Below are positions 22,611 through 36,604 of a stretch of 45,107 nucleotides of DNA, piece by piece. Each line of letters starts with the position of its first letter. Within the stretch, counting starts at the first letter, position 1. The stretch comes from a virus, in IMG/VR virus record IMGVR_UViG_3300036828_000984, positions 1 to 45,107 of that record; one strand, 5' to 3'. The position numbers were made by a program, and so were the translations under genes. The notes beneath the pieces were generated by a model that made no database searches, had not been told where the DNA came from, and saw only the letters and a list, made by a program, of their open reading frames with translations.

Positions 22611-22623
22611 ATCATAGGAGACA

Positions 22624-22665
22624 ATGCGGGCTGACTCGCCGGATCCAACGGCGCGCCAGCCCTGA
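22624..22665 (+). CDS. Thirteen-codon ORF in a hairpin before endonuclease gene
   Basis: AGGAGA followed by ATG 22624 reads MRADSPDPTARQP and stop. Most of it lies in a hairpin with GGGCTG/CAGCCC and CCG/CGG stems (22627-22662). It may be a leader peptide or simply the remains of an initiation region displaced by the endonuclease insertion. Evidence is limited to the Shine-Dalgarno sequence and the structure. Confidence 0.25.
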   Translation: MRADSPDPTARQP

Positions 22666-22692: not shown

Positions 22693-23391
22693 ATGGCTGC
22701 GAAAAATATAAGTGCGCCTGAGTGCGTCGTCTATTGGCTCTATGATGATCAATGCATTTGCCCGTGGCGGCACGGCTACGTCGGGGTAACCTTCGAATGG
22801 CGGAAACGAATGGAGCGACACCGACGAAGGTTCGGTGCGCACATTCGCGTACAAGTTCTGTTTCGTGGAAACAAAAAGGAATGCTTGAATTTGGAATGGC
22901 GCTTGCGTCCACGCGCAGAGATCGGCTGGAACAAACATCCCGGCGGCTCAATGCACAGATTAGGTGCAAAGATGAGCCCAGAGAGCCGCAAGAAAATGAG
23001 CGAGGCTGGTAAACGACGGCCGCCAATTACAGAAGAGACCAGAGAGAAACAACGTATTAGGATGCTTGGAACAACTAATAGAGGGCGTATCGGGCAGCAA
23101 AAATCTGAGAAAGAAAAAGCGAAGATTGCTGCGGCTCATACAGGCATGAAGGCCAGCGCCGAAACTCTTCGTAAGCAGTCAGCACGGATGATCGGCACTC
23201 AATTGCATCTCGGATATACGCATAGCGCTGAAACGAAAGAGCGTATCAGATTGCAAAAAATCGGCGTTCCGGTCCACTCAGAAGAACACAAACAAAAATT
23301 GTCCGAACGCTGGAAAGGCAACAGTCTAACTAAAGGTCGTCCGTGGTCCGCTGCGAGACGGCTTCGATGGCTAACAAAATCTGCACGATAG
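22693..23391 (+). CDS. GIY-YIG homing endonuclease with NUMOD3 repeats
   Basis: 232 aa. The N-terminal part has VVYWLYDDQ then HGYVGVT, a GIY-YIG variant, with following Arg residues (EWRKRMERHRRR) in the usual position. From residue 100 on there are several NUMOD3-type DNA-binding repeats (SPESRKKMSEAGKRR, KEKAKIAAAHTGMKAS, SAETKERIRLQKIG, SEEHKQKLSERWKG). It is a free-standing mobile gene inserted between neck and sheath genes. GGAG lies six bases before the ATG. The DNA target cannot be told, but these enzymes usually cut near their own insertion site. Confidence 0.8.
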   Translation: MAAKNISAPECVVYWLYDDQCICPWRHGYVGVTFEWRKRMERHRRRFGAHIRVQVLFRGNKKECLNLEWRLRPRAEIGWNKHPGGSMHRLGAKMSPESRKKMSEAGKRRPPITEETREKQRIRMLGTTNRGRIGQQKSEKEKAKIAAAHTGMKASAETLRKQSARMIGTQLHLGYTHSAETKERIRLQKIGVPVHSEEHKQKLSERWKGNSLTKGRPWSAARRLRWLTKSAR

Positions 23392-23421
23392 TCGTGTGGA
23401 TTAAACAGAGGAGTGCGTGTC

Positions 23422-25758
23422 ATTCCAATTTCGTTCGCCGCGATTCCATCCGACATCAAGGTGCCGTTGTACTGGGTCGAAGTAGATCCGAGCATGGCCG
23501 GGCTACCAATGATTCACTTGCGATCATTGCTGGTCGGCACGATGCTTCCGAGCGGCACGGCGGATCCAGACATTCCAGTGATCATCGGCACACAAGCTCA
23601 GGTCGATGAGAAGTTTGGAATCGGTTCTGAGATTGCGCGAATGTTTAAGGCGTTCTTTTCTAACAACTTTGCGAATGAGGTGTGGGCGGGGCCAGTTTCA
23701 GAACCGGCTGGGAGTCCTGCGGCCGCGCAAGGCGCCATTGTTGTTACGGCGCCTCCGGAGCAGCCGGGTACGATTCATCTGTACATCGGCGGGCAGCATG
23801 TTGCTGTGAACCACGGCATCGATACGACTCAGCAGATTGCGCAAGAGATCCGTGATGCGATCATGGCGACGGGTGCCTATGCTGGTCAGATCGATGATCT
23901 TCCGGTGTCGGCTGCTATCGTTCAAGCGGCAACCGGTACCGGCGACGCCGTATCGTCCGGAATCAATCTGAGGGTGCAGTCGATAATTCCGGGGACGTCT
24001 CCCGGCATTGTGATTGGTGACTTGATAGCTGGTACCGGTATTCCGGCGGGCACGATTGTCACCTCGCAACTGAATGGCGTGACGGGCCAAGACGGCGACT
24101 ACACGTGCAGTCAGGACATGACGTCGGCGGTGACCGACTTCGATCTCAACTTGACGGCAACGGGTGACATCACGGCTGCGACTGGCGCCACCACGATCAC
24201 GGTCACGGGCGTGACGGCTTCCGGCGGCACGATCGAGAACGGTCGCAGCATACTTGCGGCAACCGGGAACGCGCCGCCGACCGGCATTCCAGCAGGCACG
24301 ACGATCGTCTCGCAGCTCACCGGCAACCCGCAGGGCGATGGTATTTATACGATCAGTCATGCGACGACTGCTGCAATAGCCACTCCCGTGGCCGTAAAAT
24401 TTGGTGTCACGGCGCAAGGTGTTGGAATCTCCTGGGGTCAAATCCTCGACGTGACCGGCGCCACCGGTACGATCGCCATTGGCGGGCAAGTGTCGGGGAC
24501 CGGCATTCCGCCGACGCCGCCGACCTTCGTCATGTCACAGACGTCCGGCACGCCGGGAGGTGATGGCACCTACATCATCAGCCAGGACGCTGATTGCGGC
24601 CCGGCGACCAGCCCCGTTCCCGTGACCTTCGCCGCGAGCGGCAATGCGGTGATTTTGACGTGCAACTGGAGAGGTGTCAGCGGCAACGACATCAGGATTG
24701 ATTTGAACTACTACGGCAAGATCGGTGGCGAAACGCTGGCGCCGGGTTTGCAGATCTCGTTGCCTCCTTCAAACTTCCTGACTCTGGGTTCCGGAACGCC
24801 CGATTTCACCAAGCTCATCACCAACATGGGTGAGACGGAATTCGAGTACGTGGCGATGCCATATACCGACGCGACCAGTTTGAATGCCTGGGAAGTGGAA
24901 TATGGATTTTCGGACAACGGACGCTGGGGTTGGAAACGTCAGCACTTCGGCCACGTCTTCTCGGCTCGACGTGGTGCGTTCTCTGATTTGATCGCGTTCG
25001 GCAACTCGCGCAACAGCGGTGTCGTCTCGGTGATGGCATTCGAGGAGACCGTGCCTACGCCGGTGTATGAGACGGCGGCGGCTTATACCGCAAAGGCGCA
25101 GCGATCGCTGAGCAATGATCCGGCACGGCCGTTGCAGACGTTGCAACTGCTCGGTTGTCTGCCGGCGCCGTTCCATGAACAGTTCAACTGGCTCGAAATA
25201 AACGATCTGGCCTGGAACGGAATGGCGATCCAAAAAGTCTGGCCCGGCAGTGGTTACCCGCAGATCGCCCGAGAACAGACGACTTATCAGCTCAACAACT
25301 ACGGGTACAGCGATGACGCCTACGAGCTTGTCACCACGCTGGCGACGCTGGCATTGCTGATTCGCAATCAGCGTTACAACATCACCAGCAAATTCCCGCG
25401 CCACAAATTGGCCGACGACGGTACGCGTTTTGGGCCGGGGCAGGCAATTGTGACTCCGGGCATTCTCAAGGCCGAGCTGGTGTCGGAGTATTACATCGAT
25501 GAGTACAATGGTCTCGTCGAAAACGCCTCGGCTTTTGTACAGAACCTAATCGTGGAAAGGGATCCAAATAACCCGAACCGGGTGAACGTCCTGTATCCGC
25601 CTGATCTGATCAATCAGCTCCGCATCTTCGCCGTGCTGGCACAGTTCCGGCTCCAGTACGATCGTGGTGTCGATGCAGAGATAATCGGGCCGAGTTCGCA
25701 ATACTACAGCGGCAGCGCTCAGGCATCGACATTGCCGCCCCTGACGTTCGGCGCGTGA
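23422..25758 (+). CDS. Tail sheath protein (Mu gpL-like) with inserted modules
   Basis: 778 aa if translation begins at ATT 23422 (IPISFAAIPSDIKVPLYWVE), which follows GAGGAG at good spacing. A GTG at 23413 overlaps that Shine-Dalgarno sequence. The N-terminal and C-terminal parts fit Mu-type contractile sheaths (SFAAIPSDIKVPLYW; TTYQLNNYGYSDDAYELVTT; RFRLQYDRGVD-like tail). Between about residues 195 and 403 lie three related beta modules with a G-I-P-x-G-T-x-x-x-S-Q pattern (GTGIPAGTIVTSQLNG, GIPAGTTIVSQLTGNPQGDG, SGTGIPPTPP) inserted in the outer domain. It forms the contractile tube jacket. Confidence 0.85.
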   Translation: MPISFAAIPSDIKVPLYWVEVDPSMAGLPMIHLRSLLVGTMLPSGTADPDIPVIIGTQAQVDEKFGIGSEIARMFKAFFSNNFANEVWAGPVSEPAGSPAAAQGAIVVTAPPEQPGTIHLYIGGQHVAVNHGIDTTQQIAQEIRDAIMATGAYAGQIDDLPVSAAIVQAATGTGDAVSSGINLRVQSIIPGTSPGIVIGDLIAGTGIPAGTIVTSQLNGVTGQDGDYTCSQDMTSAVTDFDLNLTATGDITAATGATTITVTGVTASGGTIENGRSILAATGNAPPTGIPAGTTIVSQLTGNPQGDGIYTISHATTAAIATPVAVKFGVTAQGVGISWGQILDVTGATGTIAIGGQVSGTGIPPTPPTFVMSQTSGTPGGDGTYIISQDADCGPATSPVPVTFAASGNAVILTCNWRGVSGNDIRIDLNYYGKIGGETLAPGLQISLPPSNFLTLGSGTPDFTKLITNMGETEFEYVAMPYTDATSLNAWEVEYGFSDNGRWGWKRQHFGHVFSARRGAFSDLIAFGNSRNSGVVSVMAFEETVPTPVYETAAAYTAKAQRSLSNDPARPLQTLQLLGCLPAPFHEQFNWLEINDLAWNGMAIQKVWPGSGYPQIAREQTTYQLNNYGYSDDAYELVTTLATLALLIRNQRYNITSKFPRHKLADDGTRFGPGQAIVTPGILKAELVSEYYIDEYNGLVENASAFVQNLIVERDPNNPNRVNVLYPPDLINQLRIFAVLAQFRLQYDRGVDAEIIGPSSQYYSGSAQASTLPPLTFGA

Positions 25759-25788
25759 TCTTCTAAACAGTCTCGATCCCGGAGAGCC

Positions 25789-25835
25789 CTGTCGCTCGAC
25801 GACAGTAATCAGGGAAGGGCCGTGTAAGTCGGCCC
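25789..25835 (+). promoter_or_regulatory. Two hairpins between sheath and tube genes
   Basis: CTGTCG/CGACAG (25789-25805) and GGGCC/GGCCC (25817-25835, followed by ACACTTTT). The second could be a weak terminator or mRNA-stability element that adjusts tube against sheath expression. Confidence 0.45.
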
Positions 25836-25863
25836 ACACTTTTGGAAAAAGGAGGACACTTCG

Positions 25864-26229
25864 ATGGCTATAAGATTCGCTGGCGTGGCGTTCGTCATGG
25901 TTGATGGCGCGCAGGAGCCGCTGCGCGGGGATCTCACGATTTCCCCGAACAGCTTGGAAAGAACGATGATCGCGGGCCAAGACGGAATTCACGGATATCA
26001 GGAGTTGCCGCGGGTGCCGTACATCGAGTGCAGTTTGAGCACATTGCCGCAGGTCTCGGTGGATGCGCTCGAACAGCAAACGAATGTGACCGTGGTCGCA
26101 CAGCTTGCCAACGGGAAGCAATATTCCCTGCAAGAGGCAACTTGCAAGGGAGGCATCGAGATCAACGCCCGTGACGGCCAGATGCGCGTGAGATGGGAGG
26201 GGACTCGCTGCAATGAGATGGGATTCTAA
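25864..26229 (+). CDS. Tail tube protein (Mu gpM-like)
   Basis: 121 aa, MAIRFAGVAFVMVDGAQEPL, with the conserved pattern RGDLTISPNSLERTMIAGQD, then GYQELPRVPYIE, of Mu-type tail tube proteins. It polymerises into the inner tail tube under the sheath. A strong GGAGG lies eight bases before the ATG. The sheath-tube order matches Mu-like tails. Confidence 0.9.
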   Translation: MAIRFAGVAFVMVDGAQEPLRGDLTISPNSLERTMIAGQDGIHGYQELPRVPYIECSLSTLPQVSVDALEQQTNVTVVAQLANGKQYSLQEATCKGGIEINARDGQMRVRWEGTRCNEMGF

Positions 26230-26231
26230 GA

Positions 26232-26750
26232 ATGAACAAGCCAATCCGTGAGGGTTTCATCCAACAAGAGACGGTCGAAGTAGAGGTGTCGACGGAAGAA
26301 GCTCCGCCGCCGGCATCGGTGGTGGTGGAAGCGGAGGACGTATCGGAAAAGCCGTCCTATGAGGAACTGGAAGCGGAGGTCAAGCGGCTGCGCGAGCGGC
26401 TTGCGCCTCCGCCGGACGCGTGGCCGCTGGTGATCAAGCTTCGCCATCGGCCGATCAAGGCGCCTGGGAAAGACGGCAAGGAGGTAATGATAAACGAGCT
26501 GTCATTCCGCGAACCGCGAGCGAACGATATGATCAAAGCTGGCGGCAATCCCGTGCGCGTCGCATTCATGGGCGTCGTCGATGGGCAGTCCAACTACGAT
26601 TATATGATCGACGATCATCGCATGACGAAGGTCATGGCAAATTTGATGGGCATTCAGGATGCTTATTTGCTGGCCCTCGATCCTCGCGACTATGCTTCCG
26701 CGGCGTACAGGTTGCGCCGTTTTTTTATCTCGGATCAGGGGCTGTGGTAG
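26232..26750 (+). CDS. Tail assembly chaperone, short form (Mu gp41-like)
   Basis: 172 aa. A disordered acidic N-terminus with a short coiled coil (YEELEAEVKRLRERLA) precedes the conserved Mu gp41-type domain (WPLVIKLRHRPIKAPGKDGK, INELSFREPRANDMI, then MGIQDAYLLALDPRDY). Its reading frame carries T-TTT-TTT at 26720-26726, where ribosomes can slip back one base to make the long form. It acts in tail tube and tape-measure assembly and is usually absent from the virion. Confidence 0.85.
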   Translation: MNKPIREGFIQQETVEVEVSTEEAPPPASVVVEAEDVSEKPSYEELEAEVKRLRERLAPPPDAWPLVIKLRHRPIKAPGKDGKEVMINELSFREPRANDMIKAGGNPVRVAFMGVVDGQSNYDYMIDDHRMTKVMANLMGIQDAYLLALDPRDYASAAYRLRRFFISDQGLW

Positions 26751-26914
26751 ACCCGGACGAATTCATTCTGAATTGCTACCGGCTCGCTGATCGCTACCAC
26801 ATGGATCCAGAATATTTGTTAGACATGCCGATGTCGCGCGTCGCGATGCACGTCCACTACACCGTCAAGCTCATCGAGGCGCAGGCGCGCGCTCGCGGGA
26901 AGAGTGATGGCTGA
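26232..26914 (+). CDS. Tail assembly chaperone, -1 frameshift long form
   Basis: Slipping at T-TTT-TTT (26720-26726) joins codons 1-165 of the short form to a second frame reading YLGSGAVVDPDEFILNCYRL and ending ARARGKSDG, about 227 aa in total. The second part has no good start of its own. This copies the gpG/gpGT arrangement of lambda and related pairs in Mu-like phages. The end overlaps the tape-measure start. Confidence 0.8.
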
Positions 26915-29585
26915 GCAAGAAGAACTTCAGCTTCGCGTAACGCTGGACGATCAGGCAAGTGCGCAGCTTTCCGCGTTGCGTGGCCAGCTTGATCAGATGC
27001 GCCAAGCTGGTCCCGTCACTGCGCAAGTGCAGCAGGCATCTCCGCAGATCGTTGCTGCCATCGGTGACGTGGTGAAGCAACTCAGCGCGATGGCGCAACA
27101 GATTGGTCAACTGCCAGCGCAAATTACTACGGCAATGTCTTCGGCCGTGCAGGGATTGCAGCAGGTACAGACCCAACTGACGCAAATTGGCACGCAAGTG
27201 CAGCAGAATGCGCAAGCGGTCGCAGCCGTGCCCGGACATGTGGCTCATGGCGCGCAAGCGCTCGGCTCGGCAATTCGGCAGGCTGGCTTCTTTGGTGGCA
27301 TCGCGGCTGGCGTTACCACGGAGTTCATCGGTCAACTTAAGGCACTTGGTAACAATCTCCTCGAACGTGCCACCGACTTCAAGGGCCTCGCCAACTCGAT
27401 GGAGAATCTTGAGACTCATGCCCGCGGCGTCGGCCAGACAATGACGGGATATAAGGGGCTAACGGAGCAACTCCAATTAGGAGGTATGAGCGCAGAGCAA
27501 GCGCAAAAAGTGGTCAGTCAATTTTCTGATCTGAGTTTGGAATTGAAACAATACGGTGCGGAGAACGCGCCGACTACCCATCGGCTCATACAGGATACTG
27601 ATCCGGCAACCACAAACTACATCTTGAAGACGATGAAGGCGATGGAGGGCGCCCCGATAGAGAAGCAGATCAATCTGTGGACCGAGCTGCGGGAGAACAT
27701 GCAGCAGACGATGCAGGCGGCGGGCAAGGGTGAGGGATTCGAGGCGGCGTGGAAGGAAATTTCGCAGCGCGCGGGCATTGATCCTGAAGCGTTTGAAAGA
27801 CTGAAGCAGGGCGTACGCCTTAAGAAAGAACTTGATGCGCCGGGACGTGAGGCAAATTATCAGGCGCGTACGGAGGAAACGAAGAAGTTTACTTATGAGA
27901 GCGCGAAAGCGCAATTGCTCTGGAAAGACATCGGGGAAAGCATTGCCGCGAGCCTGTTGCATGGTCTCGGACTCAACAATGCCATGGGCGAGTTGAATAC
28001 TTGGTTAGAACGTATTCGTGTTGATGCTGAAGCATTTGAAAAAGCGTGGCGAGATGTTGATTTTGATCACGCATTGGAACAGCTCGGGAAGATGGAACCG
28101 GCGATCAAGCCATTCCTAGATGAGATCAGGACATTCGTTACAAAGGATCTAAAAGACCTTGAGAAAAGTCTTAATAGCATTCTGGAATGGGAACACGGCA
28201 TTGGCAAAGCCAGCAAGGAACCCGATGTAGGAACCAAGATCCAACGTCGCGAACTGGAACAGCGTGGGTGGAGTGATGAGCAGATAGATGAATACTTTAA
28301 GAAGCATCCGTTGCCGCCTGATGCTCGAAAGCCATATACCTACGACGATTTGAAAAAGTGGTTGCATGGAGGAAAAGAAGCATCGCCGCAGTCACAGGAG
28401 CCCAGCGCTATAGAGAAATATTTTGGACGCAAATTTGGTCCTCGGACAGGTGTGCCTGAAAGCGACATACGCGAGTACGAAGGCGCGGCTCCTCCGGCTC
28501 CTCCGACTCCTCCGACTCCTCCGACTCCTCGGACTCCTCCGACGTCGTCAACAGATTTGACAGCGGAGCAACAAGAAAGATTGCAGCGTCGCTACACGCG
28601 AGGCGGGGCAGGGGCGCCACCTCCGCAGCAGCCGACGGGGACAGAGCTGACACCAGAGCAACAAGAGCAATTGCAGCGTGGCGGAGGCGAGGCACCTCAG
28701 CAGCCGACGCAGGGCAAGCCAATCATCGTTCCTCCAATCGATGTGAAACCGCAGCAACCACGCCCCCCGCGCGATCACACACCGCACTCATTGCGCGAGC
28801 GGCAGAAACGTGAGGAGGAAGAGCAGCAAAAGCGGGAGCAAGATGAGCGAGAGCCAGAGCTTAAACCTTTAGGGCCATTTGATCCAATCCCGACTCCGCC
28901 TCCTCCCGGTCCGAACGAGGGGAGGGCTGCTAATGTTGATCCATCACAAAGGTTTCCTCAGTTTCCTAGATCGAGCCGCGTCGAGGATTATCGGCCTCCT
29001 GGCGGCGGTGAATATCATTCCATGCTTGATCCCGATGCCACAGCGAAACAGCAGCAATTTCTCAAGGAGTATAACGAGCGACTGAAAATGCCAGAGGGAC
29101 AAGCTTGGCTGAATACGAAAGAACCGAGCTTTCCTACTGGGTCGCCGCTTGAAAAGCTCATAGAAGGAGCAGACAAATATATCAAAGGTGCGGTTGCGCA
29201 CAGTAGTCGTCGTCGCCTTGAGTCTTGGGGAAAGGCGTCGTCATCGCAGTTCGTGGGGACGGATGAAGCAGCAGATCAACCGTCGAGCTTTGAAAACCGG
29301 TTCGGCGTATGGCCTGGGATGGGCGCCGATAAATTGGATCAGACATCCGCGAAGCTCGACGAAGCCGCCAATCAAAACGTCAACATCAGCGGAGCTGGTA
29401 AAATTCAAGTCGATGTGCGCGCCCCGCCGGGTACCAGCGTTGCCGCGCAAAGCGACGGATTCTTCAAATCGACTGAGATCACTAGAATGACACAGATGAT
29501 GCCGGCGGACTTCGGGCCGGGGCCGGTGACGGGGGTAAGCGCTGGCCAAGGGGTCGCCGCCAACGGGACCGTGGGGGCTGCATAG
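26907..29585 (+). CDS. Tape-measure protein
   Basis: 892 aa from ATG 26907. The N-terminal 120 residues are Gln-rich helices with repeated QLPAQI/QVQTQLTQIG-type heptads. A hydrophobic segment follows (AGFFGGIAAGVTTEFIGQ, about residues 130-147), then long helical regions. The C-terminal third is unusual: a Pro/Thr block (PAPPTPPTPPTPRTPPTS), a repeated LT-A/P-EQQE-R/Q-LQR unit and a highly charged Arg/Glu/Gln stretch. Position after the frameshifted chaperone is diagnostic. It sets tail length and passes into the host envelope with the DNA. Confidence 0.8.
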   Translation: MAEQEELQLRVTLDDQASAQLSALRGQLDQMRQAGPVTAQVQQASPQIVAAIGDVVKQLSAMAQQIGQLPAQITTAMSSAVQGLQQVQTQLTQIGTQVQQNAQAVAAVPGHVAHGAQALGSAIRQAGFFGGIAAGVTTEFIGQLKALGNNLLERATDFKGLANSMENLETHARGVGQTMTGYKGLTEQLQLGGMSAEQAQKVVSQFSDLSLELKQYGAENAPTTHRLIQDTDPATTNYILKTMKAMEGAPIEKQINLWTELRENMQQTMQAAGKGEGFEAAWKEISQRAGIDPEAFERLKQGVRLKKELDAPGREANYQARTEETKKFTYESAKAQLLWKDIGESIAASLLHGLGLNNAMGELNTWLERIRVDAEAFEKAWRDVDFDHALEQLGKMEPAIKPFLDEIRTFVTKDLKDLEKSLNSILEWEHGIGKASKEPDVGTKIQRRELEQRGWSDEQIDEYFKKHPLPPDARKPYTYDDLKKWLHGGKEASPQSQEPSAIEKYFGRKFGPRTGVPESDIREYEGAAPPAPPTPPTPPTPRTPPTSSTDLTAEQQERLQRRYTRGGAGAPPPQQPTGTELTPEQQEQLQRGGGEAPQQPTQGKPIIVPPIDVKPQQPRPPRDHTPHSLRERQKREEEEQQKREQDEREPELKPLGPFDPIPTPPPPGPNEGRAANVDPSQRFPQFPRSSRVEDYRPPGGGEYHSMLDPDATAKQQQFLKEYNERLKMPEGQAWLNTKEPSFPTGSPLEKLIEGADKYIKGAVAHSSRRRLESWGKASSSQFVGTDEAADQPSSFENRFGVWPGMGADKLDQTSAKLDEAANQNVNISGAGKIQVDVRAPPGTSVAAQSDGFFKSTEITRMTQMMPADFGPGPVTGVSAGQGVAANGTVGAA
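28495..28545 (+). repeat. CTCCGA microsatellite in tape-measure gene
   Basis: About eight tandem copies of a six-base unit close to CTCCGA, coding for the PPT/PPR block. Slippage would change the length of the Pro-rich linker without shifting the frame. Confidence 0.7.
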
Positions 29586-29611
29586 GGCTGGCGTCCCGGC
29601 GTGAATAAAGT

Positions 29612-29680
29612 GGCCCCGGACACGGTGTAACTGGGTGACAGAACTGATGTGGTCCGGGGCCTGATCGTGGTCTTACACGA
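29612..29680 (+). repeat. 30-nt-loop hairpin, copy 5, with tail hairpin
   Basis: Stem GGCCCCGGAC (29612-29621) pairs with GTCCGGGGCC (29652-29661); the 30-nt loop carries ACTGGGTGACA. A tail hairpin TCGTG/CACGA (29665-29680) follows. It lies 26 bases after the tape-measure stop codon and fills the intergenic space before the gpN genes. Confidence 0.85.
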
Positions 29681-29724
29681 CGCCCTGATCCTTCACCCGC
29701 GGGCGCGGCAATGCAAGTGCAAAT

Positions 29725-30222
29725 ATGAGCCAGATAACCGACATCCACAATCCATGGCGCGATTCGTTCCAACCTGCGAACTTCGACGGCGCGCAATTCT
29801 TCTGCGAGATCGGCGCGTACGAATGCGGCCAGCGCATCGTGATTCATGAGTTTCCAAAAAAGGATGAATGCTATACGGAGTTGATGGGGCGGCGCTATTA
29901 CGCTTTCACCGTTCGCGGGTACTGCATCCAGAGCAGCAAGGAGCCGGACTACCGGACGAAGCGCGACGCGCTGCGCGACAAGCTCGACGAAGGGCAGGCC
30001 GGGGATCTGACTCTCCCGTTCATGAAGCCGAAGCACGTCATCTGCCGGCAATATCGATTGACCGAAGATGAGCATCTCGGTGGCTACTGCGTGTTTGATA
30101 TGACTTTCGCGGAAGCCTCAACGCCGCCGTTCAAGCCGACGCCGGCGCCAGATTATTTGTTGCTTCAGGCGGCCGATACGCTGCAAGCGCGCACGCTGAG
30201 CATCATGGCGGGAGGCGTGTAG
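29725..30222 (+). CDS. gpN-like (DNA circularisation family) N-terminal half
   Basis: 165 aa. The pattern NPWRDSFQPANFDGAQFFCE, then GYCIQSSKEPDYRTKRDALR, then LEDGQ-like and CRQYRLTEDEHLGGYCVFDM, matches the N-terminal domain of Mu gpN-type proteins, which link the tape measure to the baseplate hub. In most phages this is one longer protein; here a TAG ends the frame directly before the ATG of the next gene in the same frame. Confidence 0.8.
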   Translation: MSQITDIHNPWRDSFQPANFDGAQFFCEIGAYECGQRIVIHEFPKKDECYTELMGRRYYAFTVRGYCIQSSKEPDYRTKRDALRDKLDEGQAGDLTLPFMKPKHVICRQYRLTEDEHLGGYCVFDMTFAEASTPPFKPTPAPDYLLLQAADTLQARTLSIMAGGV

Positions 30223-30891
30223 ATGTTTAGAGAGGACTCTCTAGAGGCGCAGCCAATCGTCGATGCTGCGCTGGTGGCGCTGCTCTCGTGGGCGCCGACG
30301 CGGGGGCGTGATGGTGCCAATCTGCGAGAGCAAGTGAACTCGGTGCGGGCGCAGGCTGTCACGCTTTTGCAAGCGGATGCGATCGGTGATGATCTTGCCG
30401 CGTGCTTCGATCTCGCTGTGACGACCGGGATCAATCTTCAACAGGTCGAGCGCGTGCGGCAGATCGCAGAGGCTACCGCCCCGACGACTCCTGGGGCGCA
30501 GATGATCAAGGACTCGCTTATACAGCTCGCGTTTTGCACTCAGGCGCGTCTCATTGTTGCCATGACGTTTGTCAGCCGCACGGACGTTGAGAACGTGCGC
30601 GCGATGATAAACGCCAGCTTCGCTCCGGCGGAAGAAGCGATGGCCGATCAGATGGACGCAATGACGTATAGGGCAGTGCTTTCTTTGCATGCCGCGATCT
30701 CATTCTTTCTGACCCAGACGGCGCGTCCGCTGCCGCAAATGCTCACCTATCGATTCTCCTATCCGAGATCTACACTGGCGATCGCGCAGCGACTTTACTC
30801 GGATGCCACGCGAGCAGACGAGATACTGAACGAAAATCAAATCGTTCATCCGCTCTTTGCTCCGATGATGGGAAGGGCCTTATCGGCTTAA
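30223..30891 (+). CDS. gpN-like C-terminal half
   Basis: 222 aa, helical, MFREDSLEAQPIVDAALVAL. It lies in the same frame as the gene before, separated only by TAG. GGGAGG lies seven bases before the ATG, inside the end of the upstream gene, so re-initiation is efficient. It ends with YPRSTLAIAQRLYSDATRAD, followed by a short C-terminal tail typical of the end of gpN-like proteins. Read together the halves give the usual full length of this family. Confidence 0.7.
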   Translation: MFREDSLEAQPIVDAALVALLSWAPTRGRDGANLREQVNSVRAQAVTLLQADAIGDDLAACFDLAVTTGINLQQVERVRQIAEATAPTTPGAQMIKDSLIQLAFCTQARLIVAMTFVSRTDVENVRAMINASFAPAEEAMADQMDAMTYRAVLSLHAAISFFLTQTARPLPQMLTYRFSYPRSTLAIAQRLYSDATRADEILNENQIVHPLFAPMMGRALSA

Positions 30892-30896
30892 AAAAC

Positions 30897-32021
30897 ATGC
30901 CAGCCAAGAGCAGCGAAAAAGTAACGCTGAGCGTTGACGGAGACAACTTCGAAGATTTTGAGACAGTGTGGGTGCAGCAGACTTCGGGCGATACGTTTCA
31001 TCAGTTCAAGTTTACATGCGCCGAGCGCGTTGGCGGCAAACAATTCAAGCCGGGTGCCAAGTGCAAGGTGAACCTTGCCGGACAAGTTGCGATCGCTGAT
31101 GGCATAATCCTGAGCCGCCAAGTCGCCTATGACGCTTATCGCCATGGGGTTATGATTTGGGGGGTCAGCAGACCATGGGCCGCCGTGCGTTCGTCGATTA
31201 ACCATGGGACGAACAGTTTTGACGACAAGGACATCAAGGCAATAGCTGATGAAATTCTCAAGCCTACGGGAGTCAAATGCGAAACCTTAGGGAATATTGA
31301 TCTCACCAAATGGCCGTACATGCATGCCATGCCTGGGGAATCGATCCATGCATTCATCGAGCGCCTTGCGCGTGATCGCAATGTAACTTTTACCTGCAAC
31401 AAAGAGGGCAATCTGGTTCTCGTCTCTCAGGATTACGATGCTGGAAATCAGGGACAGCTAATCGAGGGGCAGAACATTCTCAAGATGCAGTGCGAGATGA
31501 GTAAGAAGAATGCATTCAGCAAATACATATTGGACAGTTCGACGCCAGCCGACAACAAGATGAACATGAAAGCCGCTGCGGAGCAAAGGAAGACGGCGGA
31601 TGGCACGCTGGAGCAATACAGCGTTCGCAAGATCCCCATGGAGCAGCCGGTTCGGACGCCGGCGGAAGTGCAGAAGCGGGCCGATGCCGAAAAGGCGTTT
31701 GCGGAATCGCAGGAATTACAGGCAACAGTCACGGTGCAGGGGTGGCAACCGGGAGGAGCGCAAGGAGGCGGTGAGCTTTGGCAACCTAGGAAGAAGGTGA
31801 AAGTAACCTCACCAATGGCGGCGCTCGATGATCAACTGGCTATCCAACAAGTGACGTTCACGCAGGATAATCAAAGCGGATCGTTGACGACGCTCGTTTT
31901 GGTGCAGCCGTATAAGATCGGGCAAGCCAAGGGGCAACTTAGCGGCTCGCCCGGGGGCGTGGGTGGGGGCAAAGGCGGAACGACTCAAGAGGCCGGCGCT
32001 ATCCCAGGCAATGTAGGGTAG
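30897..32021 (+). CDS. Baseplate hub protein (Mu gpP / gp44-like)
   Basis: 374 aa. Features are an N-terminal beta domain (LSVDGDNFEDFETVWVQQTS), the LSRQVAYDAYRHGVMIWGVS region, ADEILKPTGVKCE, and the strongly conserved MPGESIHAFIERLARDRN, then GNLVLVSQDY. This is the hub ring at the end of the tail tube. The C-terminus has a Gly-rich tail. The start has no close Shine-Dalgarno sequence. Confidence 0.85.
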   Translation: MPAKSSEKVTLSVDGDNFEDFETVWVQQTSGDTFHQFKFTCAERVGGKQFKPGAKCKVNLAGQVAIADGIILSRQVAYDAYRHGVMIWGVSRPWAAVRSSINHGTNSFDDKDIKAIADEILKPTGVKCETLGNIDLTKWPYMHAMPGESIHAFIERLARDRNVTFTCNKEGNLVLVSQDYDAGNQGQLIEGQNILKMQCEMSKKNAFSKYILDSSTPADNKMNMKAAAEQRKTADGTLEQYSVRKIPMEQPVRTPAEVQKRADAEKAFAESQELQATVTVQGWQPGGAQGGGELWQPRKKVKVTSPMAALDDQLAIQQVTFTQDNQSGSLTTLVLVQPYKIGQAKGQLSGSPGGVGGGKGGTTQEAGAIPGNVG

Positions 32022-32031
32022 GGAAAGACCA

Positions 32032-33375
32032 ATGCAGCGCGCTACTCCTGTTGACAGCTCAATTCGCGGTTACAGTGCCGGTGGAGCGCGCGGCCTCGTG
32101 CATGAGGCCGACGATACGCAGTATATGCAGGAGCTTAAAGTAAACTATCTAAAGTATGAGACCAGGAAGAAGGTCGAGCATCCGCAGAACTATGGTTTCA
32201 GCTCCTACTGTCGCAAGGCCGAATACGGCAGCGACGATTCCGGTGATAAGCCGGACAGTGGGACTCCAGACAAGCCGATCAAGAACTCCGCCGAGCACTT
32301 CGGGCAGTTCATGGGAGGTAATCGCGCGTTCCCCGTGATCGAAGTGTTGGACGATCGCCGCTATCGGCTGTTCAACAATCAAGAGGGCGAGGTCTGGGTC
32401 TACGATGATCAGCAGCAGAAGGTCCAGATCAAGCGCAATCTGATACTGACCCGCAGTCAGTTCAAGATCGTGCACCGCATAATCAAGGATGAGCAGCAGG
32501 CCGACAAGACGAAGACTCGCGATCAGTCCAAGCAGGACATCGACGACGCGAAGCAAGATCAGCAGCAAGGTCAGCAGCAGCAATCCGGCGGCGGCGGCGG
32601 CCTCCAATCCAGCGACAACGGCGTCGAGCAGTCGGGAACGCAGGACAAGCCGTGGAAGCCGTTGTCAACCTATGCCGCCGACAAGGATTCAGTTGTTCTC
32701 GTGCGGCAGAAGGACAACGATGACGGTGATCTGCTCTCCAAGCTTTGGTTGACCGACGGCCAAGGTGACGCGACGCCGAAGGGGCAGAAGCAGAAGCCGA
32801 AGGGGCCGCTCCTAGAAGGAAAGTTCGATGAGAGCAAGCAGACGATCAACTTCACGGTCTATTATCCGCCGACCAGTGATCAGCAACAGCCCAGGTTGGT
32901 GTTCACGCAGGACGGCGAAGACGATTACTTGGAGATGCAGGCGCTCGATCAGCAAGGCAACCTGACATTGTGGTTCCGGATGGATCAAGGGGGGAAGATG
33001 ATCACGCTGCAAACTCTGGATCAGGGCACGCCAAAGCAGACCGTGCAGTTGGACAACAATAAGCATCAAATTCATCAGTTCACTGACAACACCGATTTGC
33101 TTCTAAACGAAGATCAGCAACAAATAATCGTGTCGGCGAAGAAGAAAGTTCTGGTGGGGGACAACACCGCGAACACGCCAGCGGCTATGCGTGGATCAAT
33201 CGACAGCAAGGGTCATCGCATCGTGGCGCACGTTTGTCCCAAAGTGTTGCTGCCGGAAGGTGCTGGCGGCGGTGGCAGCGGCGGCAACAGCGGTTCTCCA
33301 CCAACAAGCTCTCCGCCTCCCAGCACAGGAACGGGCAGCGGAGGGTCTGGCGCGGGCGGCGTGATTGAGGCATGA
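32032..33375 (+). CDS. Baseplate spike protein (Mu gp45-like)
   Basis: 447 aa, starting MQRATPVDSSIRGYSAGGAR. The OB-like N-terminal part is followed by a Gln/Asp-rich low-complexity insert (KQDIDDAKQDQQQGQQQQSG), a beta-helix-like middle (DDYLEMQALDQQGNLTLWFR, then GKMITLQTL and QTVQLDNNKHQIHQFTDNT) and a Gly/Ser-rich tail. Mu gp45 is the membrane-piercing spike. The insert makes this protein longer than is usual for the family. No terminal HxH iron-binding motif was identified by eye. Confidence 0.75.
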   Translation: MQRATPVDSSIRGYSAGGARGLVHEADDTQYMQELKVNYLKYETRKKVEHPQNYGFSSYCRKAEYGSDDSGDKPDSGTPDKPIKNSAEHFGQFMGGNRAFPVIEVLDDRRYRLFNNQEGEVWVYDDQQQKVQIKRNLILTRSQFKIVHRIIKDEQQADKTKTRDQSKQDIDDAKQDQQQGQQQQSGGGGGLQSSDNGVEQSGTQDKPWKPLSTYAADKDSVVLVRQKDNDDGDLLSKLWLTDGQGDATPKGQKQKPKGPLLEGKFDESKQTINFTVYYPPTSDQQQPRLVFTQDGEDDYLEMQALDQQGNLTLWFRMDQGGKMITLQTLDQGTPKQTVQLDNNKHQIHQFTDNTDLLLNEDQQQIIVSAKKKVLVGDNTANTPAAMRGSIDSKGHRIVAHVCPKVLLPEGAGGGGSGGNSGSPPTSSPPPSTGTGSGGSGAGGVIEA

Positions 33376-33379
33376 TCTT

Positions 33380-34252
33380 GTGGATTTTGTCATCGCGACT
33401 TTCGAAGGCGTCGTCTCGATCGACAATCAGCCTCTTGGCGTGGACACCACGAGCTTGCCGGCCAACGTCGCCGTCGTCGCCTATGATTGCAGCAGTGGTG
33501 CCGGCAACATCGAGTACAATGACCGCCTTCGCATCCTAGAGCCGCTGCTCGATCCTACGCCCTATCAGGTGGTGTTGAACAATTGGCTGAAAGTTGCGGC
33601 CGCATTGACCGCGATGCCGGTTACGCTGGTGCAGGCCAAGCACGTCAAGATCGGGATCGTCAACGGCATCTATAACGGCAAGCGGCAGTTGCCGGTCACG
33701 GCAATTGGCCACACCTGGGACGCGAGCGATACGGCCTACGCGGACATGCAGGCCGCGATCACGTCAGCCACTCCTGGCATGATCGATTCTCTCACCATTC
33801 AAGCAAACACGTCGATACACAGCGATACTCCAGTTCAATCAACTCCGGCGCAATCTCAAGGTGCCTATGCGTCTGCCGGTGGTTCCGCCACCTATGTCAC
33901 CGGTGGCACTCAGTCCACCGGGATTCCATACACGGTCTCTCTTTACACTGCATCTTCGAGCTTTGTCACCGCCGTGGCCGGTGGACAGATTTCGCAGCAG
34001 CCTCAATATGTCATCAGCAATCCAACACAGATCATATCACCAAACCAGAACACGACCGCAAATTTCACTCCGCTGAATGAGACAACGGCACTGACTCTCA
34101 CCGTTGGTCAGATAGGCCAGATCGTCGCGACCATTCAAGGACGCCGCTCTGCACTACAAACTGTTAAAGTGAACAAGACGAACTCGATCAATGCACTCAC
34201 GACGGTAAACGCGGTGATCTCTTACGACGCAACAACAGGTTGGCCTTCATAG
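33380..34252 (+). CDS. Baseplate-associated protein, unknown
   Basis: 290 aa if GTG 33380 is used (TTGAGG upstream); TTG 33365 is an alternative. The N-terminal half is globular (FVIATFEGVVSIDNQPLGVD, and LPVTAIGHTWDASDTAYADM, which recalls the DUF4376 theme of fibre proteins). The C-terminal half is Ser/Thr/Gln-rich with repeated beta-strand patterns. It sits between spike and gp46-like genes. The function is not known. Confidence 0.55.
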   Translation: MDFVIATFEGVVSIDNQPLGVDTTSLPANVAVVAYDCSSGAGNIEYNDRLRILEPLLDPTPYQVVLNNWLKVAAALTAMPVTLVQAKHVKIGIVNGIYNGKRQLPVTAIGHTWDASDTAYADMQAAITSATPGMIDSLTIQANTSIHSDTPVQSTPAQSQGAYASAGGSATYVTGGTQSTGIPYTVSLYTASSSFVTAVAGGQISQQPQYVISNPTQIISPNQNTTANFTPLNETTALTLTVGQIGQIVATIQGRRSALQTVKVNKTNSINALTTVNAVISYDATTGWPS

Positions 34253-34291
34253 TTATTCCGTGGCGTCGACAACATCGAAAGGGGAATCGCC

Positions 34292-34837
34292 ATTCCTGAT
34301 ATCAGGCTGATTCAGAACACGCTGTTTCCCGGTCAGGGCGTTGTCCAGATCGACTGGAACTTGCTTGCCAACGGCACGCTGGACGATACGCAAGCGCTGG
34401 CGACGGCGGTCGTCGTGGCTCTCGGCACCGATCGGCTGGCAAACCCGGGAGACGTCCTTCCCGATCCTGACGACACCAACCGGCGCGGATGGTGGGGCGA
34501 CGCCGATGCTGAGGAGATATGGGATGGCTGGCCGATCGGAACGCGGCTGTGGCTCATGCGCCGCGAGAAGATCGTCGAGTCTGGCGCGCAGCAGGGCGCG
34601 ACCACTGTTCGCATAGAGAACTACATCCGCGAGGCGATCCAGCCATTCTTGGATCTTCGCATCGGCTCCAGGATGGACGTCGTCGTGACGCGTGTCGATG
34701 TACAGCGCATCGACGCTCTCGTTCGCATCTACAGGGGTCCGATTTTGGAGATCGATCTTAGATATCAAATATTGTGGGACGGAATAATCGACCAAAGTGA
34801 TTTTGCCGACATAGGCTCCCCGCAACACCAGCTCTGA
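34292..34837 (+). CDS. Mu gp46-like baseplate protein, AUU start
   Basis: 181 aa if it begins at ATT 34292 (IPDIRLIQNTLFPGQGVVQI), which follows AAAGGGGA at six bases. The frame is open from 34253 but contains no ATG, GTG or TTG until TTG 34361, which would cut off the conserved N-terminus. Conserved Mu gp46 features are ATAVVVALGTDRLANPGDVL and NRRGWWGDADAE. It joins the inner baseplate. Confidence 0.75.
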   Translation: MPDIRLIQNTLFPGQGVVQIDWNLLANGTLDDTQALATAVVVALGTDRLANPGDVLPDPDDTNRRGWWGDADAEEIWDGWPIGTRLWLMRREKIVESGAQQGATTVRIENYIREAIQPFLDLRIGSRMDVVVTRVDVQRIDALVRIYRGPILEIDLRYQILWDGIIDQSDFADIGSPQHQL

Positions 34838-34857
34838 AGAAAAAGCTTCGACCAGAT

Positions 34858-35550
34858 ATGGCAAAACACGACTGGGACAAAGCGCACCCTGAGAAACTGC
34901 TAGAAGCTCGACGACGATGGCGAGAGAAAAACCGCGAAAAACTCCGGAAAGAAAGTCTGGCTCGGTACTACGCAAATCGAGAATACTATTCAAACAATCT
35001 TCGTAAGTGGAGAGCGGAAAATCCCGAAAAATTGCGCGCACAAAGGCGTAGGCATGATGCAAAGCCACATCGTAAAAAGACCCAGCGCGGCGACTTCAAA
35101 GAGAGACGGCGCAGATACAACGAAAAGCACATTGATCGTATTCGCCTTGGAAGGATCGCGTTTGAACGGCGACGGAGATCTGATCCGATACAACGTGTTG
35201 TTGATTCAATCCGGCGTCGCATCCGTCATGTTATTAAAGGGGGGAAATCGAAGGGGCTTTTCATTCTGTTAGGATATTCTGGCGACGAGTTGCGCCAGCA
35301 TATTGAGTCCCTTTTCCAGACGGGCATGACCTGGGAGAATTATGGGCTCTATGGCGAGCGGTGGCACCTCGATCACAAGCGACCTGTGTCATCGTTCAAT
35401 CTGCCAGAGCAGTTACTAGAATGCTTCGCGCTGAAAAATATGCAACCGCTTTGGGCTAAAGATAACTTGTCCAAGCATTCAACATGGGAGGCGGCCTATT
35501 CCTTGGCAGACCCCGGATCTCAAAACAGTTCGATCGCTTGTTCGCGATAG
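34858..35550 (+). CDS. HNH homing endonuclease
   Basis: 230 aa. A long basic helix-rich N-terminus (several YN/RRR segments, including ERRRRYNEKHIDRIRLGRIA) is followed by the HNH-type core WHLDHKRPVSSFN, then CFALKNMQPLWAKDNLSKHS. It lies between the gp46-like and gp47-like genes, and its last 53 bases overlap the start of the latter. A separate short C-terminal tail (AADYS-like AYSLADPGSQNSSIACSR) is coded by the gp47 start region, so the endonuclease ends in the tail gene. It is a free-standing mobile gene. Confidence 0.8.
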   Translation: MAKHDWDKAHPEKLLEARRRWREKNREKLRKESLARYYANREYYSNNLRKWRAENPEKLRAQRRRHDAKPHRKKTQRGDFKERRRRYNEKHIDRIRLGRIAFERRRRSDPIQRVVDSIRRRIRHVIKGGKSKGLFILLGYSGDELRQHIESLFQTGMTWENYGLYGERWHLDHKRPVSSFNLPEQLLECFALKNMQPLWAKDNLSKHSTWEAAYSLADPGSQNSSIACSR

Positions 35551-36604
35551 CATTCAAGCGTACTTGCCCGGCGCCGATGCCATGGTGCCTAATTCGGTCT
35601 TGCGTGTCCTGTCGGACAATCAGGGTGCAGTCTGCCATCTCACCTTGCAGTATCTCGATTGGCTTGCGCTGCAACTCCTTCCGGACACTGCTGAGCAGGA
35701 ATGGCTCGATCGTCACGGCGACATCTGGCTGGTCAACGCCGATGGTTCCACGGGAAGAAAGTCTTCCACATTTACGACTGGCACGGTGACCTTGACCGGC
35801 GTGGCTGGAACGTTGGTCCCGGTCAACACTCAGCTCACCTACCCCACCACTCTCTTCGGCTACGAGACGACGCAGCAGGTCTTTCTTGCGGAGTCCAACT
35901 CTGACACTCCGGTGACGGTTCGTGCCCTCGACCCTGGATCGCTCGGCAATCTTGAAGCTGGCACTTCGTTAGATGTTACCACCGCCATAGATGGACTCGA
36001 CGGCACCGCCACGGTCGTCGCCCTGGAAACCGGAACGGACGAAGAGACCGACGATGATCTTCGCATCCGCGTGCTGGAGCGAATTCGTCAACCGCCGATG
36101 GGCGGCGCAAGCTATGACTATGTCGCGTGGGCGAAGGCCGTCGGCGGCGTGACGCGTGCCTGGGCGAACGTCGAGATGGGAATTGGCACCATCACGGTCC
36201 GGTTCATGTGCGACATTCTTCGCGCGTCCAACAACGGCTTTCCTCTGGATACCGATGTTCAGAGCGTGACGGACTACATCAACTTCAAGCGACCGGTCAC
36301 GGTGAAAGACTTCTGGGTCTACTCTCCCATTCCACAATTCATCGACGTCAAGATAGCCAACCTGAATCCGAACGACGAGGCGACGCGAGCTGCGATTCAG
36401 CAGAGTTTGCTGGACATGCTTCTTTTACGCGCGGCTCCCGGTCAGACGATCTTCTCGGCTTGGAAGTACTACGCCATCATGCAGGTCGCCAACGTTATCT
36501 CATTCGATCTACAAGACGCGAGTGACGATTTCATGCCAAGCATCGGTCACATGGCCGTTCTCAGGAATGTGTTCTACGATGCAACCACAACAGTTATCTC
36601 CTGA
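35498..36604 (+). CDS. Mu gp47-like baseplate wedge protein (gpJ type), AUU start
   Basis: 368 aa from ATT 35498 (IPWQTPDLKTVRSLVRDSIQ), with GGGAGG six bases before. Homologues usually start MPWQTP. The first standard start in frame is TTG 35564, which would remove 22 conserved residues. The body has LPGADAMVPNSVLRVLSDNQ, LTLQYLDWLALQLLPDTAEQ, EWLDRHGDIWLVNADGSTGR and DDLRIRVLERIRQPPMGGAS, all standard for the family. It overlaps the HNH gene at the start and the gp48-like gene at the end. Confidence 0.85.
   Translation: MPWQTPDLKTVRSLVRDSIQAYLPGADAMVPNSVLRVLSDNQGAVCHLTLQYLDWLALQLLPDTAEQEWLDRHGDIWLVNADGSTGRKSSTFTTGTVTLTGVAGTLVPVNTQLTYPTTLFGYETTQQVFLAESNSDTPVTVRALDPGSLGNLEAGTSLDVTTAIDGLDGTATVVALETGTDEETDDDLRIRVLERIRQPPMGGASYDYVAWAKAVGGVTRAWANVEMGIGTITVRFMCDILRASNNGFPLDTDVQSVTDYINFKRPVTVKDFWVYSPIPQFIDVKIANLNPNDEATRAAIQQSLLDMLLLRAAPGQTIFSAWKYYAIMQVANVISFDLQDASDDFMPSIGHMAVLRNVFYDATTTVIS

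Follow-up and report, generated by a model that had tools for sequence, protein, structure and literature searches.

Three contractile-tail genes of a Mu-like phage with apparent AUU starts, two of them adjoining inserted endonuclease genes

The 45,107-base IMG/VR record IMGVR_UViG_3300036828_000984 (hereafter the window, that is, the whole stretch of DNA analyzed) carries tail genes of the Mu-like contractile type, as judged by Pfam and PHROG matches. Three of them, the genes for the tail sheath, a GP46-type baseplate wedge protein and a Baseplate_J/gp47-type protein (gp46 and gp47 in what follows), have ATT where their relatives have ATG, each behind a well-placed Shine-Dalgarno sequence (SD). 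That these genes may start at AUU had been proposed in a first-pass annotation of the sequence; what is new here is that two of the three AUUs, those of the sheath and gp47, adjoin inserted endonuclease genes. We regard as likely a single explanation in which the genes are initiated at AUU with the help of the SD and the sheath and gp47 AUUs arose from endonuclease insertion.

Results

Start codons of the three genes

The features concerned are the following:

23422..25758, + strand: tail sheath gene, ATT start, product beginning IPISFAAIPSD (Pfam Phage_sheath_1, 4e-13, and Phage_sheath_1C; PHROG sheath, 2e-138)
23408..23413, + strand: sheath SD GAGGAG, 8 nucleotides upstream of ATT 23422
23413..23415, + strand: in-frame GTG overlapping the sheath SD; unconserved, GTA in relative L081
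22693..23391, + strand: endonuclease gene before the sheath gene (NUMOD3 motif; PHROG 'homing endonuclease'), with a reading frame that is open from GTG 22681
22624..22626, + strand: ATG behind GGAG (22617-22620), past the stop of the preceding gene; probably the former start of the sheath gene
34292..34837, + strand: GP46-type baseplate wedge gene, ATT start, product beginning IPDIRLIQ (Pfam GP46, 1.6e-21)
34278..34285, + strand: gp46 SD AAAGGGGA, 6 nucleotides upstream of ATT 34292
34858..35550, + strand: HNH/endonuclease VII-like gene between gp46 and gp47 (PHROG endonuclease VII, 1.4e-10)
35498..36604, + strand: Baseplate_J/gp47-type gene, ATT start, product beginning IPWQTPDL (Pfam Baseplate_J, 4e-51)
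35486..35491, + strand: gp47 SD GGGAGG, 6 nucleotides upstream of ATT 35498, lying in coding sequence near the 3' end of the HNH gene

The codons, SDs and spacings that the first-pass annotation reported at 23422, 34292 and 35498 are all present, and its statement that the conserved N-termini begin at ATT holds in alignments, where each ATT falls in the column of the relatives' ATG. It had also held that gp46 and gp47 have no standard start that spares conserved residues; we find that the earliest in-frame canonical starts are indeed internal, TTG 34361 for gp46 and TTG 35564 for gp47, that is, 23 and 22 codons inside the conserved proteins. For the sheath, the only GTG (23413) overlaps the SD, as had been noted; in L081, a relative with 93% identity, the ATT is kept and the GTG is GTA, hence this gene has no canonical start upstream. 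The sheath of the window is 778 residues long, vs about 520-530 in many relatives, the extra stretch being Gly- and Thr-rich and located in the middle of the protein.

Among the relatives, the start column of the sheath (70 rows, some contigs represented twice) contains 68 ATG, one ATT and one misaligned GGG. The gp46 column (63 rows) contains 35 ATG (e.g., L034), ATT in one relative contig (rows L033 and L002) and ATC in L050; several further rows begin upstream or downstream of the column. The gp47 column (76 rows, again with some contigs twice) contains 64 ATG, four ATT, three TTG, three GTG and two GCC, the GCC rows having ATG one codon upstream. The gp47 gene of the nearest relative (L033, 92%) starts with ATG, and others have ATT or ATC. 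A comparison with relatives had been suggested as a check on the AUU starts; the occurrence of ATT or ATC at the same codon in independent relatives makes it very unlikely that raw reads would have ATG.

Conservation places the gp47 start at the same codon: in the ATT/ATC genes (n = 20) mean amino acid identity rises from 0.13 in the 10 codons preceding the start to 0.68 in the 10 that follow, and in 12 of the 20 the frame contains no NTG from the upstream stop to the start. The window genes share three sequence features with AUU genes of the infC type: ATT at the homologous start, an SD at the proper spacing and no usable in-frame canonical start. These comparisons support three AUU starts as by far the best reading of the window sequence, and the three tail genes would then be translated from AUU.

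Recurrence of ATT and ATC

We surveyed the stop-to-stop frames of the window and its relatives, reading the codon at which most homologs have ATG. Of 380 starts with an SD, 326 are ATG, 35 GTG, 11 TTG and 8 ATT (ten rows with ATT less two in which an ATG stands one codon upstream; the count excludes the sheath ATTs). The control comprised 104 loci from Mu-like neighborhoods of other hosts; these came mostly from a Pseudomonas phage sheath query and are less diverse than the surveyed set, and queries with Mu gp47 and Bordetella phage gp47 contributed few loci. Its 481 starts with an SD include 475 ATG, 6 GTG and no ATT (8/380 vs 0/481; Fisher p 0.0014, kinship ignored). The gp46 gene of Bordetella phage PBb001, missing from the annotation, starts with an ordinary ATG.

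When IMG/VR was scanned for a pattern (GGAG, 4-9 bases, ATH, gp47 N-terminus), 33 stretches were returned; among the candidates read, 22 encode gp47, with ATT in 14, ATC in 8 and ATA in none; some of these are copies of one phage. The pooled, partly pattern-sampled set of 98 distinct gp47 genes contains 70 ATG, 14 ATT, 6 ATC, 4 GTG, 3 TTG and one GCC preceded by ATG, and the gp47 tree implies 16 or more switches between ATH and NTG. Because the scan selected ATH, the fair rate is that of the set collected blind to the start codon: among its distinct gp47 contexts ATT occurs in four relatives and the window, ATG in 49, TTG in three and GTG in three, so that ATT is about as frequent as GTG or TTG. 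This is unlike bacteria, in which one of 61,358 ancestral AUG starts was found to have changed to AUU (Belinky et al. 2017, PMC5622118). The first-pass annotation had called three AUU starts in one phage striking; the three stand, but ATT recurs in this group and the case is less extreme than when set against bacteria at large. We also found a single match to ATH-gp47 in 265 genomes of the Bradyrhizobium genus group; it encodes a membrane permease-like protein with in-frame ATGs upstream and was rejected as gp47. The relatives of gp47 that come from named genomes belong chiefly to Bradyrhizobium and Methylobacterium.

Within the group four tail genes occur with ATT, that is, those for the sheath, gp46, gp47 and the fibre (the last in L003, L053 and L390). 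Two other apparent starts are uncertain: ATC behind GAGGAG in a 1,099-residue gene of L198 (G014, minus strand, 14957), and CTG behind GGGAGG in a gp48-type gene from about 4536 in L053, the same phage that has an ATT fibre gene. The uncertain ATC starts of L184 and L198 were used only as members of the 10 insert-free ATT/ATC starts discussed below.

Endonuclease genes at the start junctions

The ATTs of the sheath and gp47 each lie directly behind an endonuclease gene; no insert adjoins the gp46 AUU. The end of gp46 and the leader that follows are common to the window and L033. In L033 the leader runs into gp47 at ATG-CCATGG; in the window it runs into the ATG of the HNH gene, behind which gp47 resumes at ATT-CCTTGG. 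Judged from this junction, the HNH gene appears to use the former ATG of gp47; its frame extends 53 nucleotides into gp47. At the sheath, GGAG and ATG 22624 remain 13 bases past the stop of the preceding gene (22610), and the body of the gene resumes at ATT-CCA about 800 bases further on. The sheath-side endonuclease gene is missing at this site in L080, L082 and L084; such absence from otherwise collinear relatives is as expected of a homing endonuclease. Endonuclease domains are found in the product of 22693-23391 (NUMOD3, with the PHROG match) and in L053 and L163 (HNH_5); the product of 34858-35550 has no Pfam HNH match, despite its PHROG match to endonuclease VII.

Similar arrangements and their remains occur in relatives. 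L081 has no endonuclease gene before its sheath gene, and the last codons of one (K-S-A-R-stop) and the leader persist before the ATT. L387 has the layout of the window, with an HNH gene right after the gp46 stop and an ATT gp47 behind it; relatives of the HNH gene precede ATT gp47 genes also in L373/L412 and L395, and remnants occupy this position in L381 (C-terminal) and in L369 and L385 (inverted). In L053 an HNH_5 gene unlike the HNH gene of the window directly precedes the ATT fibre gene, and in L163, a prophage of Bradyrhizobium erythrophlei GAS478, an HNH_5 gene precedes a fibre gene that starts with TTG. The leaders of the ATT/ATC genes in L407, L382, L394 and L383 resemble endonuclease 3' ends, a likeness that is suggestive only.

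The sheath-side endonuclease has no match in the phage collection. Its relatives in L083, L088, L096, L102 and L145 are found in reverse orientation a short way ahead of the sheath gene, and the upstream edge of the sheath gene looks like a hot spot for endonuclease genes in both orientations. Relatives of the HNH gene also occur in annotated phages; of five such regions fetched, one junction was read, that of Rhizobium phage 16-3 (L490, 2030-2046). There the HNH-type gene p100 carries AGGAGG near its end, a short distance ahead of the ATG at which the following gene begins, an arrangement in which the endonuclease supplies the SD as in the window but the start is normal.

The association was counted in the start-blind set, with tests that were chosen once the link had been noticed. 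A script found inserts before four of 14 ATT/ATC starts (the L081 scar was counted by hand) and two of 772 NTG starts; L104, L138 and L231 (all ATG; missed by the script or outside the set) were added by hand; one shadow-frame ATC row (L062) had been dropped before the count. With these additions inserts or remnants precede 4/14 ATT/ATC starts vs 5/773 others (p 8e-6); put the other way, ATT/ATC makes up four of nine starts behind an insert or remnant vs 10 of 778 elsewhere. Without the window rows the figures are 2/11 vs 5/759 (p 0.004), or 2/7 vs 9/763 starts. For gp47 alone the association is 7/21 vs 1/78, a figure inflated by the GGAG that the pattern requires.

SD strength and the initiation machinery

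Predicted pairing with the anti-SD is stronger before ATT than before ATG starts of gp47 (means -8.7 vs -4.95 kcal/mol, p 0.002; 5 vs 49 distinct contexts, window included, no correction for kinship); similarly, weaker start codons tend to accompany stronger SDs in bacterial start switching (PMC5622118). The annotation had suggested looking for a phage-encoded initiation factor, and no IF3 domain was found in 20 records, the sequences being fragments; nor were tRNA genes, initiator tRNA included, found in the window or 34 relative loci, likewise fragments, in which absence counts for little. In the candidate host family the infC gene itself starts with ATT behind GGAG in all 17 genomes checked, evidence that the hosts use AUU for one gene or more; none of 47 start columns of host genes around infC has ATT, a sample too small to be informative.

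Discussion

The explanation that we favor builds on what is observed directly, namely the codons, the SDs, the recurrence of ATT, the positions of the inserts and the scars. The ordinary initiator tRNA would translate the sheath, gp46 and gp47 from AUU, enabled by a well-placed SD. In the sheath and gp47 genes, an inserted endonuclease gene would have separated the original start codon from codon 2, the insertion preceding the change of start codon; the old ATG would have been stranded at the sheath and, at gp47, turned into the start of the endonuclease itself. The displaced tail gene would then start at an AUY offered by the 3' edge of the insert, with the SD in or just after the last endonuclease codons, and such starts would outlast the decay of the insert (L081, L381). 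AUU presumably lowers the yield of these genes and makes them sensitive to IF3, as it does infC. For two of the three AUUs, insertion junctions offer the most informative account; that of gp46 lies outside it and may be a point change or an unrecognized scar.

Several results weigh against this explanation. With both the window and the remnants removed the association falls to 1/11 vs 3/759 (p 0.056). The six other gp47 cases with an insert or remnant come from a pattern that demanded GGAG, which the insert supplies, and the start-blind ATT gp47 genes other than that of the window have no detectable insert. Inserts do not force ATT: sheath genes start with ATG behind intact inserts (L143, L104) and a remnant (L138), gp47 starts with ATG behind a remnant in L231, and the fibre gene of L163 starts with TTG. 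The SD relationship, when limited to independent pairs without pattern-derived loci, finds no support, with two pairs only. Because of the exceptions, the pattern bias and the post hoc choice of tests, the link between endonuclease inserts and ATT/ATC starts is probable, not proven.

The main alternative is that the AUUs are ordinary point changes of ATG tolerated through a strong SD, with the endonuclease genes as bystanders that also favor gene edges. Ten of the 14 start-blind ATT/ATC starts, both gp46 cases included, have no insert, as expected from this idea, and the gp47 clade of L395, L046, L043 and L399 keeps ATT with an intact insert in L395 only; that retention, also considered as a sign of selection for ATT, is not significant (20 of 111 fourfold columns are equally invariant). 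The enrichment behind inserts and the scars argue the other way, and we consider point change distinctly less likely than insertion. It is unlikely that AUU was selected as a regulator that ties the tail genes to the IF3 supply, as in infC, so that their translation would come late or at times of IF3 shortage. The infC starts of the host family are compatible with such control, as are S. aureus AUU/AUA starts, near-cognate codons with roughly 10% of the output of AUG (PMC13009471), a Streptomyces GTC start repressed by IF3 (PMC5472188) and the hindrance of M13 by excess IF3 (PMC2268962); however, the same genes have ATG in most relatives, and a weak start is odd for an abundant sheath.

The remaining alternatives concern the starts themselves. 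Initiation elsewhere (at sheath GTG 23413 or an internal TTG/ATG) or frameshifting from the preceding gene could draw on the in-frame GTG of the sheath and on the 8 of 20 ATT/ATC gp47 genes with some in-frame upstream NTG; the other 12 have none, conservation begins at the codon after ATT/ATC, the GTG is GTA in L081 and internal starts would cost conserved residues, all of which makes this reading very improbable. Self-splicing introns that join the old ATG to codon 2 in the mRNA would fit the order at the sheath (old ATG, insert, codon 2), but no Rfam group I or II intron matches the window at E up to 5 and the inserts are almost entirely coding, so we give this idea little credence. The window is an IMG/VR contig, known from its assembly alone, and might contain sequencing or assembly errors; with identical start codons recurring across contigs from many assemblies (e.g., ATC in the provirus L407/G581, whose gp47 nests among Bradyrhizobium prophages), the chance that error explains the starts is practically negligible.

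The favored explanation, AUU initiation with insertion at two genes, has partial parallels. Like the window genes, infC and other bacterial genes initiated at AUU, AUC or GUC combine a near-cognate start with a good SD; the literature cases are mostly regulatory genes in which the odd start is conserved, whereas here virion structural genes are concerned and the start varies between close relatives. T4-like phages have free-standing homing endonucleases (seg, mob; intronless homing) whose genes are likewise wedged between essential phage genes, and in T4 some of these inserts contain promoters for the gene that follows (PMC2988022). Unlike in T4, the insert here lies at the start codon itself, supplying SD and AUY start, and homing is putative. 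In the open-access literature (subscription papers being outside our scope) we found no recognizable report of phage structural genes that start at AUU or of start replacement linked to endonucleases.

A bolder version, about which we are doubtful, is that at least three endonuclease families home to the ATG/codon 2 junction of essential tail genes, take or strand the ATG and supply SD and AUY, so that the tail gene depends on the 3' end of its parasite. Since few bases of this protein-constrained target are free to vary and the changed start alters one of them, the carrier would then be shielded from cleavage, and so would descendants that have lost the insert.

Gene callers limited to ATG, GTG and TTG would truncate or miss essential virion genes in phages such as this one, and an abundant structural protein made from AUU would speak against the idea that AUU serves only genes kept at low expression by IF3. 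If the link to the endonucleases is true, these tail genes show how a selfish gene can settle at a start codon and leave the phage viable, and the natural switches among ATG, ATT and ATC in one gene offer a means of testing start codon selection.

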